Positions 13,927 through 27,202 of a stretch of 34,262 bases of DNA are shown one piece after another; position 1 is the first letter of the stretch, and each line of letters begins with the position of its first letter. The DNA lies in IMG/VR virus record IMGVR_UViG_3300046559_000025, positions 1 to 34,262 of that record; one strand, 5' to 3'. The notes under the pieces were generated by a model. It was given only the letters and a program-made list of their open reading frames with translations, had not been told where the DNA came from and searched no databases. Source of the DNA: a virus. A program made the translations under genes and the position numbers.

Positions 13927-13935
13927 AGGCTATAT

Positions 13936-13959
13936 GGTCCCACCCTTCGGGGTGGGACC
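13936..13959 (+). terminator. UUCG hairpin terminator of the 196-aa gene
   Basis: A perfect ten-base stem (13936-13945 with 13950-13959) closes a TTCG tetraloop, ten bases after the stop at 13926. No T-run follows, as is frequent for actinobacterial terminators. Confidence 0.75.
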
Positions 13960-13964
13960 TAGCC

Positions 13965-13992
13965 GCGTGGAAATAAACTGGGTGGATTTGAT
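13965..13992 (+). repeat. 28-base direct repeat, copy 1
   Basis: This block (starts GCGTGGAAATAAACTGG, ends GATTTGAT) recurs at 14814-14841 with one change in 28 bases. Each copy opens a control region that later contains CATGTT, TTTGATGCGTC and a GCATAGA operator-like site. The 205-base stretch 13927-14131 holds the terminator, this repeat and the likely promoter of the Lsr2-like gene, but no gene. Confidence 0.8.
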
Positions 13993-14040
13993 ACTGGCCG
14001 ACGCCCTGATCCATGTTTATTGGTTTGATGCGTCTTATAT

Positions 14041-14070
14041 GTTGCATCGTGCTGGCATAGAGGGTAATGT
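14041..14070 (+). promoter_or_regulatory. Candidate promoter of the Lsr2-like gene with operator copy
   Basis: TTGCAT (14042-14047) and TAATGT (14065-14070) are separated by 17 bases, a passable sigma-A arrangement 60 bases before the ATG. The spacer contains TGGCATAGAG (14053-14062), a copy of the shared operator motif. An alternative -10 (TTATAT at 14033-14038) cannot be excluded. Confidence 0.4.
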
Positions 14071-14131
14071 TTCTCTTGTAAGGCAAACAACCCCGGGGAA
14101 CGATCCCCACAGAGTCCAAAGGACAAAGACC

Positions 14132-14725
14132 ATGACTGAAGTTTCCACTCCCAGCGCCGCCGATTCCATCTACGCAACGATCGCCAACGATATCTTGGCT
14201 GAAGCCAAGAATGACTCCCAGAAGCTTCACGATATGGTGAAGCAGGTCAAGACGGCCAAGGGTAGCGCGGATGACGTGAAGAAGTGGATCGATGAGTCCA
14301 CAGAAGACACCGTTGTGAAGCGCCGCGACGCTATCGCCAACGCCAAGGCAAAGATCGCGGAGATTCAGGCCGAGCTTGAAGCAGAAGCACGTGCCGCTAT
14401 CGTCCCGGATGATATCGACGTTAACGCGATTCAGGAATCCTTCAAGACGGTACGTGGTGAGGTTATCAAGACTCTCAGCGCCGCCCGTATCATTCTTGGC
14501 AAGGCAGGCGTTAAGGACTTGTCCGAGATTGATGAGCTTCAGAATAACCTGCCTAAGAGCATCACGGGCGTATTCAGCGGCTCCGGTAAGTCCCCTGAAG
14601 AACTTGCCAAGGTTCGGGAATGGGCTCGCGCTAATGGCCACACTGTCGCGGATCAGGGCCGGATCGCAAAGTCGATTCAGGATGAGTATGACGCCGCTAT
14701 GAAAGAGGGCGCAACGGCTGAGTAA
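14132..14725 (+). CDS. Nucleoid-associated protein with Lsr2-like C-terminal domain
   Basis: 197 aa from ATG 14132, with AAAGGA eight bases upstream; the reading frame is open further up but has no better start. Residues about 1-110 are helical, with a charged coiled coil (KKWIDESTEDTVVKRRDAIA). Residues about 155-190 match the Lsr2 DNA-binding domain: SPEELAKVREWARANGHTVA, then DQGRIAKSIQDEYDAA. Lsr2 has RGR in the minor-groove loop; here it is QGR. Lsr2 proteins bridge and silence AT-rich DNA in Actinobacteria. The phage protein keeps the DNA-binding end but has a different, longer N-terminal part in place of the Lsr2 dimerisation domain. It has its own promoter and a strong terminator. It may mask phage DNA, counter host Lsr2 silencing or set early gene expression. 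Confidence 0.82.
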   Translation: MTEVSTPSAADSIYATIANDILAEAKNDSQKLHDMVKQVKTAKGSADDVKKWIDESTEDTVVKRRDAIANAKAKIAEIQAELEAEARAAIVPDDIDVNAIQESFKTVRGEVIKTLSAARIILGKAGVKDLSEIDELQNNLPKSITGVFSGSGKSPEELAKVREWARANGHTVADQGRIAKSIQDEYDAAMKEGATAE

Positions 14726-17382: not shown

Positions 17383-17651
17383 GTAACCATACCGGCCCCG
17401 GTTATTGGAAGATCACTAATACCCGATACGGTTTTGCTGTGGTGGATGGTAAGGTACGACGTAAACGGTTATACCATACTGAGATAAATGCCAGTCATGT
17501 AACACCGTGGCTTGCTATATGGGTTAGCGATAATCCTTACAGTATCCAAGCACCTAAGAGATTCAAGACACATAAAGACGCCCTCGCCTATGCCGTGTTG
17601 GGTGGAACGCCTATCCCGCCTGAAACATTGGCAACTCTGGAAGAGAGATAA
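17379..17651 (+). CDS. Hypothetical basic early protein
   Basis: 90 aa, starting with an ATGA overlap with the previous stop. It opens GPGYWKITNTRYGFAVVDGK and has a basic strand region (RRKRLYHTEI) followed by PWLAIWVSDNPYSIQAPKRF and the helix THKDALAYAVLGG. No family recognised. It ends four bases before the SNF2 gene. Confidence 0.82.
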   Translation: MSNHTGPGYWKITNTRYGFAVVDGKVRRKRLYHTEINASHVTPWLAIWVSDNPYSIQAPKRFKTHKDALAYAVLGGTPIPPETLATLEER

Positions 17652-17655
17652 AACA

Positions 17656-19773
17656 ATGAGCGACCTTGACGATTTCTTTGCTAACATATTCGACGGAGCC
17701 GAACCTGCTAAACCGGCCAAAGAAGAGCCTGTTAGTGAAGCTCCCACAGAAGAAGTAAAGAAGATTGTTCTTAGCGGTGAGTTCTTTGATCCTGAAGACA
17801 AAGTTATCGAAGACGGTATTTGGGCGGGTATGACGGTTGAAGAAGTAGCCGCTGAATACGGTCAAGAAGAACCTGTAGAGCCTGTAGTTCTTTCTCCTGT
17901 GGATATCGCCAAGGCGGCTGTCGAAGCGGCTAACCAGCGCGAAGAAGAAGCACGCGCTAAGTTCCAAGCCGTTAAAGATGAGTACGCGGCAATGGAAGAA
18001 ATGATGCGGGTTATGCGTCAGAAGTTTGCCGACGCTAATACCGAATACCGTGAAGTCGCTAACGATAAGCACGCGGCACAACGTAAGCTTACTGAAGCTG
18101 AGTTCATTGCTCAGGAAGAAGCTAAAGAAGCTGAGATTCAAAAAGAGAAGCGCGTATTGGTAGAGGGATACCGTAAGAAGGTAGAAGAACTTGATCCGGC
18201 ATGGCGTAATGGTGCTTACGATCACCAGTGGGAAGGTGCTACTACTCTTGCACTTCACGGTAGCGCTCTATTGGGTGACGAAATGGGACTCGGTAAATCT
18301 CTCACCGCTCTTATGGTCCTCGACTTCATCGATGCACACCGCACGCTTATCGTTGCTCCTAATGGCACGGTAGAGAACCTGACTCTTGAGGCTATGCGTT
18401 GGAGTCCTCACCGCTTTACATTCCCTATGGCCGGTAGCGATAACGCTACTCGCACCGCATTGCTGAACACTATCTTCCGTCGCCGCTTTGAACAGGGTAA
18501 AGACTTTATCATGACGGTTAACTTTGAGCAGTTGCGTAATGCGGAATTCGTTGAGCAACTTCGTGAGTTGCAATTCGATACCATCATCGTCGATGAGGCA
18601 GACGGATTCAAGGATAAGTCGAGCGGTCTTTATAAGTCGCTCTATCGTCTGCGCTACGCGGCTAACAAGTTGGAAGAGAATGGTGAGCTTAGCTGTAGCG
18701 TTAAGCACTTCTATCCTATGACCGGTACCTTTATCCGCAACAAGCCTGCTGATATCTGGCCTGCCCTTAACTTGGTAGACAAAGAAGCTTTCCCGGTTGA
18801 GCGTGAGTTCCTGCTTACCTACTGCACCTATGATTCCTATGATGGGAAATGGAACTTCAGGACTGGTGGAGTTAGCTCGCTTATCAAGCGACTCGGTGGC
18901 CGTATCGTTATGCGCACCACAGTAGAGTGCGGAATCATTATCCCCGAACAGATTCTTCACGATGAGAATCCCGCTCACCTTGAAGTCTGTGAAGAATGTC
19001 GTACCGAATTCCCCATTCGCTTTATGGATGGTGAGTATGGTGACCAGCGCCGCATCATGAAACAGCTGGCCGAACATTCTCAGATCATTCTTGATAGCGA
19101 ACGTAAGACTTCCACTATGGAACAACTCGCTATCATTACCCGTAACCGGCAGGCAGTAGTATGGCCCGGCGGTATCAAGCTTACGGGTGAACATGCCGAC
19201 GGTAGTAAGTTCGAGTTCTCTGTGGGAGAAGACGTTAACGAATCTATCAAGGTCGATTGGGTGGAACGCAAAATCCGCGCCTTGCGTGCTAAAGGTAAGC
19301 GCGTAGTCGTATTCTCTCAGTTCAAGGACGGTATTAAAGAACTGGAGTCCCGGCTTAGGGATCAGCGGGTTGTTCGCTATGACGGTGACACGCCTTCTGA
19401 TATCAAGTCCCGGGTTATGCAGGACTTTGATAGGCGAGTAGTTGCCGATCGCGGCAATGAATGGGAATGGGATATCGTTCTCTGTAACTTTAAGACTGGC
19501 GGTGTTGGTCTTAACTTTACTCACGCCACAGATACCATTCTTCTCGATGAGTATTGGAACCCGGCAGGTAATGAACAGGCTTTCCGTCGCACTAAGCGAA
19601 TGGGACAGACTGAAGTAACTCACGTATGGATTCCCCGAGTTGCCCGCACTATCGATACGTGGATGAAGAATCTCAACGACGATAAGCGCGCTATGGTGGA
19701 CGGCTTTAACCTTGAAGTCGATATGGAAAAGAACCTGACCGACTTCCTCTCTATCATGAAGGGCGACCTGTAA
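17656..19773 (+). CDS. SNF2-type superfamily 2 helicase/ATPase
   Basis: 705 aa from ATG 17656; the longer frame upstream would overlap the preceding gene. Residues 1-180 are an acidic, coiled-coil section (from SDLDDFFANIFDG on). The helicase core follows: Walker A GDEMGLGKS (about 206-214), the DEAD-type motif II IIVDEADGF (about 310), motif III MTGTFIRN, then RecA domain 2 with KRVVVFSQFKDGIKEL, FKTGGVGLNFTHATD and motif VI QAFRRTKRMGQT (about 640-651), all typical of SNF2 proteins. A Cys pair (CEEC) sits between the domains. It likely remodels or translocates on DNA in replication, recombination or displacement of host proteins. SNF2 ATPases are known from many phages of Actinobacteria. 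Confidence 0.93.
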   Translation: MSDLDDFFANIFDGAEPAKPAKEEPVSEAPTEEVKKIVLSGEFFDPEDKVIEDGIWAGMTVEEVAAEYGQEEPVEPVVLSPVDIAKAAVEAANQREEEARAKFQAVKDEYAAMEEMMRVMRQKFADANTEYREVANDKHAAQRKLTEAEFIAQEEAKEAEIQKEKRVLVEGYRKKVEELDPAWRNGAYDHQWEGATTLALHGSALLGDEMGLGKSLTALMVLDFIDAHRTLIVAPNGTVENLTLEAMRWSPHRFTFPMAGSDNATRTALLNTIFRRRFEQGKDFIMTVNFEQLRNAEFVEQLRELQFDTIIVDEADGFKDKSSGLYKSLYRLRYAANKLEENGELSCSVKHFYPMTGTFIRNKPADIWPALNLVDKEAFPVEREFLLTYCTYDSYDGKWNFRTGGVSSLIKRLGGRIVMRTTVECGIIIPEQILHDENPAHLEVCEECRTEFPIRFMDGEYGDQRRIMKQLAEHSQIILDSERKTSTMEQLAIITRNRQAVVWPGGIKLTGEHADGSKFEFSVGEDVNESIKVDWVERKIRALRAKGKRVVVFSQFKDGIKELESRLRDQRVVRYDGDTPSDIKSRVMQDFDRRVVADRGNEWEWDIVLCNFKTGGVGLNFTHATDTILLDEYWNPAGNEQAFRRTKRMGQTEVTHVWIPRVARTIDTWMKNLNDDKRAMVDGFNLEVDMEKNLTDFLSIMKGDL

Positions 19774-19774
19774 C

Positions 19775-20206
19775 ATGCCTTGGTATCTCGCGCTCCTGCT
19801 AGTAGCAACTCTACTAGCAGGAGCGACGGGTATTGTCATAGTTAATATCCGTGACCGCAAACCGAAGTATAAAAGAATACAGGATGACTTCAGCCTTATG
19901 CTGGATACTCCTGCCAAGAAAGCCCGTCACCTGAAAGAACATCGTGACTGGGATCAAGAGTTCCACGGCTACCTAAAGCAGCGGGAACTTATTATCTGGA
20001 ACGGCAAGCTTATGTCCATCGAAGAAGCTGACCGTTCTTACTACGAAGAAGAAACAATAAGGAGATATAATGAAATTCTCGAAAAAGGTAAACTCATTCT
20101 ACTTAGCGGCTGCAATCGCATTCTCGGCTGTAACTGTGGGAAGCGTAGTTGCTCTTTCAACACCGGCACCGGCAGAAAGTCCGGTTGGAACTCAGGTCAG
20201 TGGTAA
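19775..20206 (+). CDS. Membrane protein with N-terminal TM, long 3' overlap
   Basis: 143 aa. One N-terminal transmembrane segment (YLALLLVATLLAGATGIVIV) followed by a charged cytoplasmic-type region (RDRKPKYKRIQDD, KKARHLKEHRDWDQEF). The last ~45 residues (LILLSGCNRILGCNCGKRSC and on) overlap the next gene in another frame by 137 bases and are Cys-rich, so they may be a by-product of the overlap. The coding start contains a perfect 15-base hairpin (19791-19825). Start one base after the SNF2 stop. Confidence 0.7.
   Translation: MPWYLALLLVATLLAGATGIVIVNIRDRKPKYKRIQDDFSLMLDTPAKKARHLKEHRDWDQEFHGYLKQRELIIWNGKLMSIEEADRSYYEEETIRRYNEILEKGKLILLSGCNRILGCNCGKRSCSFNTGTGRKSGWNSGQW
19791..19825 (+). repeat. 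Perfect 15-base hairpin after the SNF2 gene
   Basis: CGCTCCTGCTAGTAG (19791-19805) pairs fully with CTACTAGCAGGAGCG (19811-19825), loop CAACT, within codons 6-17 of the membrane protein gene. There is no T-run. It could attenuate transcription or be an mRNA processing site; the codons also encode an Ala/Leu-rich helix. Confidence 0.85.
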
Positions 20207-20273
20207 AGAATACACTATGACCACAGCACAGATGAATTACTTTCTCGACCGCATTCATTACGGACAGAAGTAA
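20070..20273 (+). CDS. Small secreted or membrane-anchored protein
   Basis: 67 aa. Strong ribosome site AAGGAG five bases before the ATG. The N-terminus is a signal peptide or anchor: basic MKFSKKVNS, hydrophobic FYLAAAIAFSAVTVGSVVAL, then STPAPAES, with a possible cleavage after Ala-Pro-Ala. The mature part is short (GTQVSGKEYTMTTAQMNYFL). It overlaps the previous gene by 137 bases in a different frame. Small exported phage proteins often act at the host envelope, for instance in superinfection exclusion; no direct evidence here. Confidence 0.75.
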   Translation: MKFSKKVNSFYLAAAIAFSAVTVGSVVALSTPAPAESPVGTQVSGKEYTMTTAQMNYFLDRIHYGQK

Positions 20274-20276
20274 GTC

Positions 20277-20477
20277 ATGAGTAAGCAGGAGGTAGAGGAA
20301 TTCGTTTGCGATAGCTGTGGAGCAACAGCTATCATCACTGACTTCAGTGAGAGCCACACACTGCCGCCTAACTGGCTCCACCTTATCGGGCAGGTAGATA
20401 AAGCCTATGCCTTTGAGCTTGACCTTTGTCCCAAAGATGCGGCCAAAGTCCTTAGATCACTAGAGAAGGAACTCTAA
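20277..20477 (+). CDS. Small zinc-binding-like protein
   Basis: 66 aa. EEFVCDSCGATAIITDFSES carries a Cys-x-x-Cys pair (Cys11, Cys14); a third Cys is in ELDLCPKDAAK. This resembles a minimal zinc ribbon with a helical end (RSLEKEL). No function known. Starts three bases past the previous stop. Confidence 0.78.
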   Translation: MSKQEVEEFVCDSCGATAIITDFSESHTLPPNWLHLIGQVDKAYAFELDLCPKDAAKVLRSLEKEL

Positions 20478-20478
20478 T

Positions 20479-20829
20479 ATGTGCGACGCTTGCGAAATGA
20501 TGAAAGAAGAAGACAGCGGAGTAAAGGCGCTCTATAACGAGTGGCTCGATCAGGAGAACATAAAGCCCGGCGGTATGCTTGGGGCTGACTATGAAACCGG
20601 AATGGTCCGAATCCCTAACATCGGTATCATGGTTGTTCAGAAGACCACAGACCGTAGTGTCACTACTCTTGAGGGACACACTGAACTGCCGCCTAAGCTC
20701 AATGCGATCATTATCCATGAAGGTGAAATGGATAACTTCATTCGCGGTATCTTTGTTCAGATGGGTCCTGAGTTCATGTTCGGTCTTATCGGAAAGGAGT
20801 TCAACAAAGATGACTACGACGGCATCTAA
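20479..20829 (+). CDS. Hypothetical early protein
   Basis: 116 aa (MCDACEMMKEEDSGVKAL), with a short Cys pair at residues 2 and 5, a helix ALYNEWLDQENIKPGG and a beta-rich middle (RIPNIGIMVVQKTTD, NAIIIHEGEMDNFI). AAGGA ribosome site upstream. It overlaps the 2H phosphoesterase gene by 20 bases. No family recognised. Confidence 0.8.
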   Translation: MCDACEMMKEEDSGVKALYNEWLDQENIKPGGMLGADYETGMVRIPNIGIMVVQKTTDRSVTTLEGHTELPPKLNAIIIHEGEMDNFIRGIFVQMGPEFMFGLIGKEFNKDDYDGI

Positions 20830-21325
20830 GCGGGCTAATACCTTCCAAGGTAGTCGGGTCTTCATCGGACTTAGGCCCACGATTTTCGATAACGTAGAAG
20901 ATCAGCACATCACTCTTGAGTACGTCGGTAGCTTCCCTGACTGGAAAGAACTCATCATGAAGTGCGAGCGTTGGGCAAACAAGTTTGCCTACATGCCCGT
21001 AACTGTGGAAGTGAATGGCTACGGTAACTGGCTGGCTACTAATAACGGTGACCATCGCTATTTCGACGTAGCCTTGATAGGCTTTAGGGAATACCCTGAA
21101 CTCACGTATCAGAAGAACTGGCATATCACCCTCGGCAAAGACACTAAGCCGATTAAGCCTCGACAATTCGATATCATGAAAGACGCAGACAAGTTCGATA
21201 TCTGCGACGATCTGTGGATCGGATATAAGAAGGCAGATGGTACGTCGGCTTGGATCAGGTACTTGGGCAATAGGGGAACCCTTATGCCTCAAGAATTGGA
21301 GCCTGAAAGTTGGCAGGTAGAGTAG
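20810..21325 (+). CDS. 2H phosphoesterase superfamily protein (LigT/Acb1-like fold)
   Basis: 171 aa from ATG 20810, chosen because GGAAAGGAG lies ten bases upstream; the frame is open further up but without such a site. Two H-x-T-x motifs define the family: HITL at 33-36 (in QHITLEYVGS) and HITL at 105-108 (in NWHITLGKD), 72 residues apart, with strand VFIGLRP before the first and FDVALIGF between. The family includes LigT RNA ligases/cyclic phosphodiesterases, ADP-ribose cyclic phosphodiesterases and phage Acb1, which cuts cyclic nucleotide signals of CBASS defence. Either anti-defence or RNA/NAD repair is possible; the substrate cannot be read from the sequence. Confidence 0.8.
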   Translation: MTTTASKRANTFQGSRVFIGLRPTIFDNVEDQHITLEYVGSFPDWKELIMKCERWANKFAYMPVTVEVNGYGNWLATNNGDHRYFDVALIGFREYPELTYQKNWHITLGKDTKPIKPRQFDIMKDADKFDICDDLWIGYKKADGTSAWIRYLGNRGTLMPQELEPESWQVE

Positions 21326-21888
21326 TATGCGCCTATTGTGCAGTAGGATTTCCAGAAGGATTCTGTCTCACAGAAGGCAAGTGCAGTTCAAAAGACGATA
21401 TGCTAGAAGGAGGCGAGAAGAACCTTGGAGAGATACTCGATATCACCGCGTCGCTCGGGGAAGACACATCTAGCGAGAGAGTATATAAAGATGCTGTCTC
21501 AACTGGACGCAAAAGAGCGGCCGAACTTTACCCGATATCAGTTGGGCAGGTTTGTGCGTGGGCATGGTCTAAAAACTGCGGGGGCGGCGTATCGCCTATC
21601 ACCGGCTGTACTGGTAGGCCAGCCACCAACATTCATCACGGACCTGATAAAAGCACGTTCTCTAATGAAGCCTCCAATATATCCGTCATTTGCACGTTTT
21701 GCCACAATCGCTGGCACGTCGCAAATGATAAGTTCTATAGTGAGCCAAGGCCCGATAATGGACTTCCGTGGCTACCAAATGTTCCCGAGGGTAAAGAACT
21801 TATACCCTTGGAAGCTAGAGTAAAAGCAAGTAAGCAGGAAATCCTTATGGAAGAAATGCTCATACCAGAAGGCGGTAAAGATAAGTGA
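21310..21888 (+). CDS. Zinc-binding HNH-type nuclease protein
   Basis: 192 aa from TTG 21310, with GGAG eight bases upstream; no other start gives the Cys-rich N-terminus. Residues about 6-25 hold several cysteines (CAYCAVGF, FCLTEGKC). The C-terminal part is HNH-like: NIHHGPDKS, then ASNISVICTFCHNRWHVAND, i.e. His-His, Asn, and the Cys-x-x-Cys-His pattern with the last His in RWH. HNH proteins nick or cut DNA; in phages they act as homing or repair nucleases or in packaging. A competing frame from 21425 to 21823 also lacks stops but shows no family signature beyond a chance GKT. Confidence 0.82.
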   Translation: MAGRVVCAYCAVGFPEGFCLTEGKCSSKDDMLEGGEKNLGEILDITASLGEDTSSERVYKDAVSTGRKRAAELYPISVGQVCAWAWSKNCGGGVSPITGCTGRPATNIHHGPDKSTFSNEASNISVICTFCHNRWHVANDKFYSEPRPDNGLPWLPNVPEGKELIPLEARVKASKQEILMEEMLIPEGGKDK

Positions 21889-25384: not shown

Positions 25385-27202
25385 TTGTCAGAGAAGGACG
25401 GCATTCTTACCTTCCTCCAACATTGTTGGGGGGCAGAAGATACGTTTATCTATCTGGCCACTAAGCCCGAACCTGATCTGTGGAAGATCACAAAGCCACA
25501 GAAGTGGCCCGAGAATAGTGAACAGATAGTACAGTTCATAATTGCGTTCAACGCCCAAGGTAAAGATGTCTATTTCTCCCCGGCTCAATATGAAGATGAT
25601 CCGTCGGCTAAGGATAAGGCTAATGCCAAGGGTTCCCGCGTATTGGTAGTGGACCTAGACGGCTACAAGGACTCTCAGAGCGCCCCTGACGCGGCACTGG
25701 CGCTCCTGAAGGAGCTAAACCTCCCCGAGCCCACGTACCGCCTGCAAAGCTCTCAGAAAGGCGCTGAGCACTGGTATTGGATTCTTGATAAGTTCTATCC
25801 GTCCGATATCATTGAAGACCTGAATCGTCGATTGGCCTATTACCTAGGCGCTGATAAGGCATGTTGGAATATCGACCACGTATTCCGCCCTCCTTATACC
25901 CATAACCATAAGCCTGAGCGTAGGACCAAAGACGGAACGCCGCCTATGGTTACGATTGCACACTTCTCCCGAACAGTGCATTCTCCCACAGCCTTTGGCG
26001 ACTTGCCTGCCGTTAAGAAGCAGATCACCGAAATGATTGAATTCGGTGACATTCCCGCTATCAGCGACGTGCTGGCTAAGTATCCGTGGGATAACGTCCA
26101 CCTTGATATTCTGAAGATGGATAAGAAAGCATTCTGGAAAGATGCCTCCGGTGATTACGAAAACCGTGGCCTAACTATGATGCGTCTTGCTTACTTCTGT
26201 GCCGAAGTAGGTATGACAGATGAGGCTATGTATGCGGTCATTAATGACTGTGACGAACGTTGGGAAAAGTTCGTAGGTAGGCACGACCGAGATAAGCAAA
26301 TGGTAGCGTTCATTAATAGGGCTAGGCTTAAATACCCCACAGAAGTCTTCGCTGTGGAAATGGCTCAGGACGATATCAAGCAGGTCTATACGATCAAGGA
26401 ATTCCTTGCGTCAGATTTCAAGTTCGACTGGCTTCTCGATGGGTTGATTACTAAGAACTCTATCAACTCTATTTCATCCCGGCCCGGTGTCGGTAAGTCC
26501 CGTCTTACCCTTCAGCTTGCTAAGTGCCTTGCTTCAGGTGAGGACTTCTTAGGCTTCAAGAATCTGGCCGGTCCTATGAAGGTGATGTATCTATCACTCG
26601 AAATGGGCGGTCCTATCCTGAAATACTTCGTGCAGTCATTGGTGGAATCTTCCAGCATGGACATAGACGAAATAGAAGAACGGTTCCTCTTGGTCCCACA
26701 GGGAGAGCCTTTGGCTTTGGCTAGTCCCGACGGTGCGTTGTTCTTCGACTATCTGTTGGAAAGTCACCAGCCTGACTTTATGATTATCGATGCTATGTCC
26801 TCACTATCTCATGAAGAGATTGGTGAGAAGGTGGCTAAGCAGATCATGGGTAAGCTGAAGTCGGCATTGAATAAGAGCGGTATCACTTTCATGCTGATTC
26901 ACCACAACAAGAAGGGGAGCGAGCTTAATAAGAATAGCGCCCCGACTATCGACGATTTCTACGGTAACACCTTTGGTACCACAGACTTCGCCAGTATGAC
27001 AGCCCTGTGGAATCCTCCTAATAAGAGGTTCACAGAATTTCACGCCCTAAAGACTCGTGTAGGCGCGAGTCCCAAGCCTCTTATCTTGAACGGTAAAGAT
27101 CAGTTTACCTTTGAGATTGAGACAGAACAGGAGTCCACCAGTGACGATAACAATGGGGAAGAAAATCCCCTTCAGCAATTTGGCTTTGGAGCAATGGGTT
27201 AA
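25385..27202 (+). CDS. Primase-helicase: AEP primase-type domain plus RepA/DnaB-like ATPase
   Basis: 605 aa from TTG 25385, with TAGGAG six bases upstream. The N-terminal part resembles archaeo-eukaryotic primases as found in RepB/PrimPol proteins: VLVVDLDGYK (about 85-94, metal-binding Asp-x-Asp), LQSSQKGAEHWYWILD (about 119-134) and HVFRPPYTHNHKPER (about 165-180). The C-terminal part is a RecA-fold helicase: Walker A SRPGVGKSRLT (about 366-376), Walker B FMIIDAMSS (about 464), then HHNKKGSE and the sensor-like DDFYGNTFGTTDF. It would unwind and prime the phage fork with the polymerase next door. Overlaps the polymerase gene by 62 bases. Confidence 0.87.
   Translation: MSEKDGILTFLQHCWGAEDTFIYLATKPEPDLWKITKPQKWPENSEQIVQFIIAFNAQGKDVYFSPAQYEDDPSAKDKANAKGSRVLVVDLDGYKDSQSAPDAALALLKELNLPEPTYRLQSSQKGAEHWYWILDKFYPSDIIEDLNRRLAYYLGADKACWNIDHVFRPPYTHNHKPERRTKDGTPPMVTIAHFSRTVHSPTAFGDLPAVKKQITEMIEFGDIPAISDVLAKYPWDNVHLDILKMDKKAFWKDASGDYENRGLTMMRLAYFCAEVGMTDEAMYAVINDCDERWEKFVGRHDRDKQMVAFINRARLKYPTEVFAVEMAQDDIKQVYTIKEFLASDFKFDWLLDGLITKNSINSISSRPGVGKSRLTLQLAKCLASGEDFLGFKNLAGPMKVMYLSLEMGGPILKYFVQSLVESSSMDIDEIEERFLLVPQGEPLALASPDGALFFDYLLESHQPDFMIIDAMSSLSHEEIGEKVAKQIMGKLKSALNKSGITFMLIHHNKKGSELNKNSAPTIDDFYGNTFGTTDFASMTALWNPPNKRFTEFHALKTRVGASPKPLILNGKDQFTFEIETEQESTSDDNNGEENPLQQFGFGAMG

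Follow-up and report, generated by a model that had tools for sequence, protein, structure and literature searches.

The window analysed here is the whole stretch of 34,262 nucleotides of the IMG/VR record IMGVR_UViG_3300046559_000025, and its carrier is a virus of soil bacteria. The gene under study encodes a predicted 2H phosphodiesterase, and the features around it are as follows.

17512..19773, plus strand: SNF2-type helicase gene (Pfam SNF2-rel_dom, E 2.8e-10), the left border of the variable slot
20479..20829, plus strand: 116-aa ORF with an N-terminal CxxC (CDAC), PHROG 30961 of unknown function, overlapping the start of the 2H gene by 20 bp
20794..20799, plus strand: AAGGAG, read directly in the sequence and likely to be the ribosome binding site for 2H
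20810..21325, plus strand: predicted 2H phosphodiesterase gene, 171 aa, with HxT at H33-T35 and H105-T107
20906..20914, plus strand: codons of the first HxT (H33-I34-T35), H and T invariant in 7/7 members
21122..21130, plus strand: codons of the second HxT (H105-I106-T107), H and T invariant in 7/7 members
21310..21888, plus strand: HNH-type gene overlapping the 3' end of the 2H gene, with weak HNH PHROG matches (E 0.05-0.34) and annotated as HNH in Casserole

The ATG at 20810 was taken as the start of the 2H gene, with AAGGAG 10 nt upstream and similar starts in relatives. In the promoter and terminator scan, the counts were close to shuffle expectation. The SNF2 ORF is given as listed, and its alignment with most relatives begins at residue 44-49. 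The HNH-type protein contains several Cys pairs and has no Pfam match.

The sequence-only reading of this DNA had placed the product of 20810-21325 in the 2H superfamily on the basis of two HITL motifs 72 residues apart. Both motifs were found, at residues 33 and 105. When the protein was shuffled 200,000 times, a loose form of the pair, with H-hydrophobic-[TS]-hydrophobic occurring twice at a distance of 55-110 residues, arose in 54 cases and two HITL motifs in none, so that the pair is not a product of chance. No other stop-to-stop frame of at least 60 codons, on either strand of the window, had the motif pair. The superfamily is recognised by two H-x-[T/S] motifs on paired strands, which the protein has, and the placement is backed by the motif pair, its conservation in seven of seven members and the predicted fold.

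A tblastn search of 50,697 phage records returned eight matches, all from Jasmine-type phages of Arthrobacter sp. ATCC 21022; the proteins are about 41% identical to the window protein, and every one is labelled hypothetical. In IMG/VR, seven loci carry a family member. Two of them encode a protein identical to that of the window (DNA 99.8 and 99.98% identical over the shared stretch), two are at 47-48%, two are Adat and Jasmine, and one is Casserole-like. A plasmid search and two genome-contig scans yielded no relatives. The family is thus narrow, consisting of the Jasmine-type Arthrobacter phages and the seven IMG/VR loci, and the literature searches that touched it found no description. The window protein falls in PHROG 35499 (E 3.1e-37), which is unnamed and of unknown function, and no member record examined bears a function or a 2H label. 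The Jasmine representative of this PHROG, gp46, is 41-43% identical to the window protein and lies in the same gene order, but its first half has two insertions (5 and about 15 residues) that the window protein does not have.

Seven proteins were aligned (the window, L009, L010, L013, Jasmine, Casserole and Brad), and the six others were 40-48% identical to the window protein. Both His and both Thr residues are invariant, as are N-G-Y-x-N-W, K-N-W-H and other positions. Of 21 pairs compared, 15 were saturated or nearly so; the six with dS no higher than 1.04 gave a Nei-Gojobori omega of 0.05-0.18. The gene is under strong purifying selection.

AlphaFold models, built with six sequences, were obtained for the window protein (pLDDT 82.6, pTM 0.78) and for Jasmine gp46 (pLDDT 82.7, pTM 0.79). 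In VIA-align, 2H proteins filled Z 4.7-8.9 with the window model, with the next row at 3.6; the 2H rows of the Jasmine model were at 5.2-8.3, with the next at 3.8. A few rows (mitoribosomal and reovirus chains) were counted here as what we presume to be 2H proteins. Both predicted models have a 2H/LigT-like fold. With Z differences below 1 counted as ties, the window model matched Deinococcus CPDase (5h7e; Z 8.9, 135 residues aligned, rmsd 3.8), Arabidopsis Appr>p CPDase (1fsi; Z 8.8, 132 residues, rmsd 3.8), YjcG (Z 8.8, 129 residues, rmsd 3.4), E. coli LigT (Z 8.6, 126 residues, rmsd 3.0), rotavirus VP3 PDE (Z 8.2, 117 residues, rmsd 3.5), Usb1 (Z 7.8, 132 residues, rmsd 3.6), phage BCSR5 PDE (Z 6.6, 115 residues, rmsd 3.7), penguinpox cGAMP PDE (Z 6.4, 117 residues, rmsd 4.1) and Acb1 (Z 6.0, 106 residues, rmsd 3.7). 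The order was similar for the Jasmine model, with YjcG at 8.3, Arabidopsis CPDase at 8.3, Deinococcus CPDase at 8.2, LigT at 7.8, VP3 at 7.7, penguinpox at 6.2, BCSR5 at 6.1 and Acb1 at 5.9. Across both models, the LigT, YjcG and cyclic phosphodiesterase structures scored about 7.5-8.9 (E. coli LigT structures 7.5-8.6, plant and Deinococcus ADP-ribose CPDases 8.1-8.9) and Acb1 5.2-6.0. This difference of about 2 or more in Z is a lean of the models toward LigT-type folds and not proof, because Acb1 is a smaller target.

The best Foldseek match of the window model in the PDB was the rotavirus VP3 2',5'-PDE (E 1.7e-4), whereas the Jasmine model matched more weakly, with YjcG first (E 0.013) and then Usb1. 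As the matches of the Jasmine model were the weaker, the closest family was not named from the Foldseek rank alone. The C-terminal 2',5'-phosphodiesterase of VP3 (Z 7.5-8.2 with the window model, 11-14% identity) was outside the Foldseek top 50 of the Jasmine model, and neither PDB list had Acb1 among its top 50, an absence that rules nothing out. The BCSR5 Burkholderia phage PDE (9q2g/9q2y) and the penguinpox enzyme (9bkq/9ciw) share the 2H fold at Z 5.9-6.6 with 8-19% identity; our literature search found no paper on the BCSR5 PDE. Against viral models (BFVD), the window model matched 2H domains of many viruses and phages (best E 4.8e-4). These matches include 2H-like domains within large actinophage proteins of Gordonia phages Tardus and GMA2 and Rhodococcus phage ReqiPepy6, which fit the 2H domains of polyvalent proteins treated in a section of PMC5512222.

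The sequence-only reading had named phage Acb1, which degrades the nucleotide signals of CBASS immunity, as a possible relative, and had remarked that, the motifs apart, the protein does not obviously resemble T4 Acb1. The second remark proved correct: the BLAST score against T4 Acb1 was 15.4 bits, which 386 of 2000 shuffled Acb1 sequences equalled. Membership of the Acb1 family was rejected, since the window protein matched neither Pfam Acb1 PF23474 (up to E 10) nor PHROG 755 (up to E 1), models that T4 Acb1 as a control matched at 2.7e-60 and 5.3e-68, and since the BLAST score was at the shuffled level and the Z values were below those of the LigT, YjcG and CPDase structures.

A true Acb1 that has diverged very far and kept its substrate range is, in our judgement, quite improbable. 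Like phage Acb1 (T4 gp57B), the window protein is a small solo phage protein with the 2H fold and a pair of HxT motifs, at a spacing of 72 versus 69 residues. Both also have a Trp, W74, ahead of the beta hairpin, although ThpR likewise has one there. However, the missing family-model matches and the lower Z in both models count against such a descent, and the stretch from the end of the central strand to the second His is 12 residues in the window protein versus 25 in T4 Acb1. In the models, this stretch holds a 4-residue helix (window) or no helix (Jasmine). The pocket description in PMC9117128 gives Y12, W74, F107 and W147 as the base-stacking residues of Acb1, with E141 as a contact and a C-terminal lid. 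The two sequences cannot be aligned, the pre-hairpin Trp is present in ThpR as well, and the lid residues of Acb1 are not recognisable in the window protein. An aromatic residue before the second His was considered as a counterpart of Acb1 F107 and was not used as a likeness, because the offsets differ (5 versus 6 residues).

The similarity to ThpR/LigT is weak and above the shuffled level. In BLASTP against E. coli ThpR (b0147), the window protein scored 23.9 bits, equalled by 2 of 2000 shuffled ThpR sequences, and ThpR outscored Acb1 for six of the seven members, the exception being L010. The first halves are alike in a strand, HxTLxxxG and GxWL before the hairpin, whereas the second half has no detected similarity to ThpR. 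The only Pfam match was LigT_PEase (PF02834) at residues 28-75, with E 0.0015 and 19.1 bits versus a cut-off of 23.3; TIGR02258 (RNA 2',3'-cyclic phosphodiesterase) gave E 0.068 and 13.1 bits versus 65.7, so that the protein lies below both curated ThpR/LigT cut-offs. Of five other members, L009 alone matched LigT_PEase (E 0.055). A search of the window record with the Pfam LigT profile gave no match at E 1, despite the E 0.0015 from hmmscan of the protein. Profile-profile comparison of the seven-member alignment with T4 Acb1, a 28-sequence Acb1 alignment and E. coli ThpR recovered the motif only and cannot rank the families. A PDB sequence search with the single window protein gave no match; in the profile search, all E values were at least 0.21, and the third hit was a Pyrococcus LigT-like protein (E 1).

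These similarities bring in a second reading, an RNA-end enzyme of ThpR/LigT type that opens the 2',3'-cyclic phosphates which host ribonucleases leave on RNA (as on tRNA cleaved during defence) or trims 3' ends like Usb1. We regard it as the chief competitor, though on balance unlikely. The two sub-threshold families, the ThpR score and the Z values of LigT, YjcG and Usb1 (7.1-8.8 with the window model, 6.7-8.3 with the Jasmine model) argue for it, while the second half has 12 residues where ThpR has 32 before the second His. The genomes also speak against it, as no partner in RNA repair was found. RNA ligase PF09414, KptA PF01885 and macro domain PF01661 were absent from all four records searched (the window, which is a fragment, and three Jasmine-type genomes), as was RNA ligase PF09511, for which T4 was positive as a control. 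The PNK-type domain PF13671 had no match above its cut-off in these records, and its matches below the cut-off, in two of the four, cover a 20-residue P-loop. The window showed no tRNA genes, and neither did L004 and L014, the records covering Jasmine. The sequence-only reading had held that its proposal would be refuted by inactivity on cyclic nucleotides together with a structure closest to RNA-repair enzymes; the structural half nominally came out that way, but a fold ranking does not fix the substrate.

A cyclic phosphodiesterase of CPDase type, acting on Appr>p or 2',3'-cNMP, appears improbable. The Arabidopsis and Deinococcus enzymes were among the best structural matches in both models, but their Z values tie with those of LigT and YjcG. 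KptA is a known source of Appr>p, and neither KptA nor a macro domain occurs in the four records.

The neighbourhood was compared over the seven family loci with flanking sequence (the window, Jasmine, Casserole, Brad, L009, L010 and L013). All seven run from the SNF2-type helicase through small ORFs, where there are any, to 2H, and then to the HNH-type gene and the PDDEXK nuclease. The HNH neighbours of the relatives are 55-66% identical to that of the window, and the 2H proteins 41-48%. Jasmine, Brad, Casserole and L013 each have a homologue of the 116-aa ORF (27-30%) upstream of 2H, and none was detected in L009. At E 1, the 2H family profile detected 4/4 family records and found no match in 4/4 distant relatives that keep the HNH gene (Shocker, DS1, L051 and L052). 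In Shocker the layout is helicase, 51-aa ORF and HNH; in DS1, which has two tRNAs, three ORFs including an annotated amidase lie between helicase and HNH. In L051, an ORF that we take to be helicase-like from its GLGKT motif adjoins HNH, and L052 has a presumably peptidase-like ORF. Within the window, the slot ORFs 19775-20206 and 20277-20477 have no detectable match in the relatives compared. Because HNH relatives are without 2H, slot contents differ and these two ORFs are unmatched, we conclude that the 2H slot turns over like accessory cargo. The idea that 2H is a core gene of the replication block was dropped, as four distant relatives have HNH without it.

The gene had been said to lie among small accessory genes. 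This holds for its immediate surroundings, but the slot itself sits inside a replication/recombination block (SNF2 helicase, HNH, PDDEXK nuclease, AAA, RecA-like and PolA). PADLOC models matched none of the 2H, HNH and PDDEXK proteins, and the SNF2 protein had helicase-domain matches only. Among the window genes scanned, no known anti-defence gene adjoining 2H was identified. The 2H and HNH genes adjoin in 7/7 flanked loci and overlap in the window, and a catalytically dead or structural 2H partner of the HNH product in DNA processing may be imagined. Such a partner is very improbable, since the four catalytic residues are invariant, purifying selection is strong and 4/4 distant relatives have HNH without 2H.

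A proposal for 2H domains of phages was made in 2017, reportedly by Iyer and colleagues. The portion of PMC5512222 that deals with these domains describes those its authors saw as lying in polyvalent proteins or standing alone, and never with RNA ligases, and proposes that they act as RNases or degrade 2'-5'A or cyclic/defence nucleotides. Studies have also shown that the 2H fold can serve the destruction of defence nucleotides, as stated for Acb1 in the relevant part of PMC9117128 and for poxvirus LigT-like PDEs in that of PMC11410667. The "conserved phage phosphoesterase" of EMBO Rep 2025 was considered as a relative and set aside, being an unrelated metallophosphoesterase according to the portion of PMC12287305 that describes it.

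We therefore favour, tentatively and ahead of any single alternative, an accessory, catalytically competent solo 2H phosphodiesterase of Jasmine-like actinobacterial phages that would destroy a nucleotide signal of the host. Signal destruction is more likely than RNA repair and was ranked first because RNA-repair partners and tRNA genes were not found, and because of the 2017 proposal and the Acb1 and poxvirus precedents. The motifs, the predicted fold, the conservation and the accessory position come from calculation. From them we infer the activity, and with less certainty the preference for an immune signal over RNA ends. An anti-defence function is plausible, given the variable accessory slot, the lack of a detected RNA-repair partner and what was proposed in 2017 for phage 2H domains that stand alone. 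Of the earlier suggestion, the 2H label is right and the Acb1 family name is not supported, while an Acb1-like way of working is plausible.

If the protein acts as we favour, the two HxT motifs would form the usual metal-independent acid-base pair of the superfamily. One His would help the ribose 2'-OH (or water) to attack the phosphate, and the other would protonate the leaving group. The enzyme would open or shorten a small host nucleotide made during infection, which may be a cyclic oligonucleotide or a 2'-5'/2',3'-linked nucleotide. Nucleotide-signalled defence would thereby be blunted, in the manner of Acb1 and outside its family. Against this explanation, we count that sequence and fold lean toward ThpR/LigT/CPDase and not Acb1, and that 2H is present in every Jasmine-like locus examined, as a lineage-specific housekeeping gene would also show. 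A narrower possibility, on which we would place limited weight, is a separate class of anti-defence PDE that derived from ThpR/LigT independently of Acb1, with a shortened second lobe, and destroys an actinobacterial immune nucleotide, perhaps with a linkage that Acb1 spares.

An anti-defence enzyme would represent a second, independently evolved phage 2H family directed against nucleotide-signalled immunity, found in actinobacterial phages whose records say only "hypothetical protein". If the product instead works on RNA ends, the gene is an ordinary LigT-like one of the solo kind. The question is testable in the isolated relatives Jasmine, Adat and Casserole, phages of Arthrobacter sp. ATCC 21022.

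Some further features of the window were observed. A 5-nt loop separates the arms of a perfect 15-bp inverted repeat at 19791-19825, which lies inside the start of a 143-aa ORF, in the part that codes for a hydrophobic segment; of the loci compared, L001 (same population) and L003 (the window itself) are the only others to have it. A 67-aa ORF at 20070-20273 overlaps the end of the 143-aa ORF and has, by eye, a signal-peptide-like start, so it is possibly a small secreted protein in the variable slot. The 605-aa protein of 25385-27202, annotated in Jasmine as RecA-like recombinase only, carries an AAA_25 domain and weakly matches a RepB-type primase (E 0.0027, below cut-off). Near the C terminus of the 263-aa ORF at 13934-14725 lies an Lsr2 DNA-binding domain (PF23359, E 3e-12); in Jasmine, an Lsr2-like gene lies at each end of the record, within the reported 1330-bp terminal repeat.
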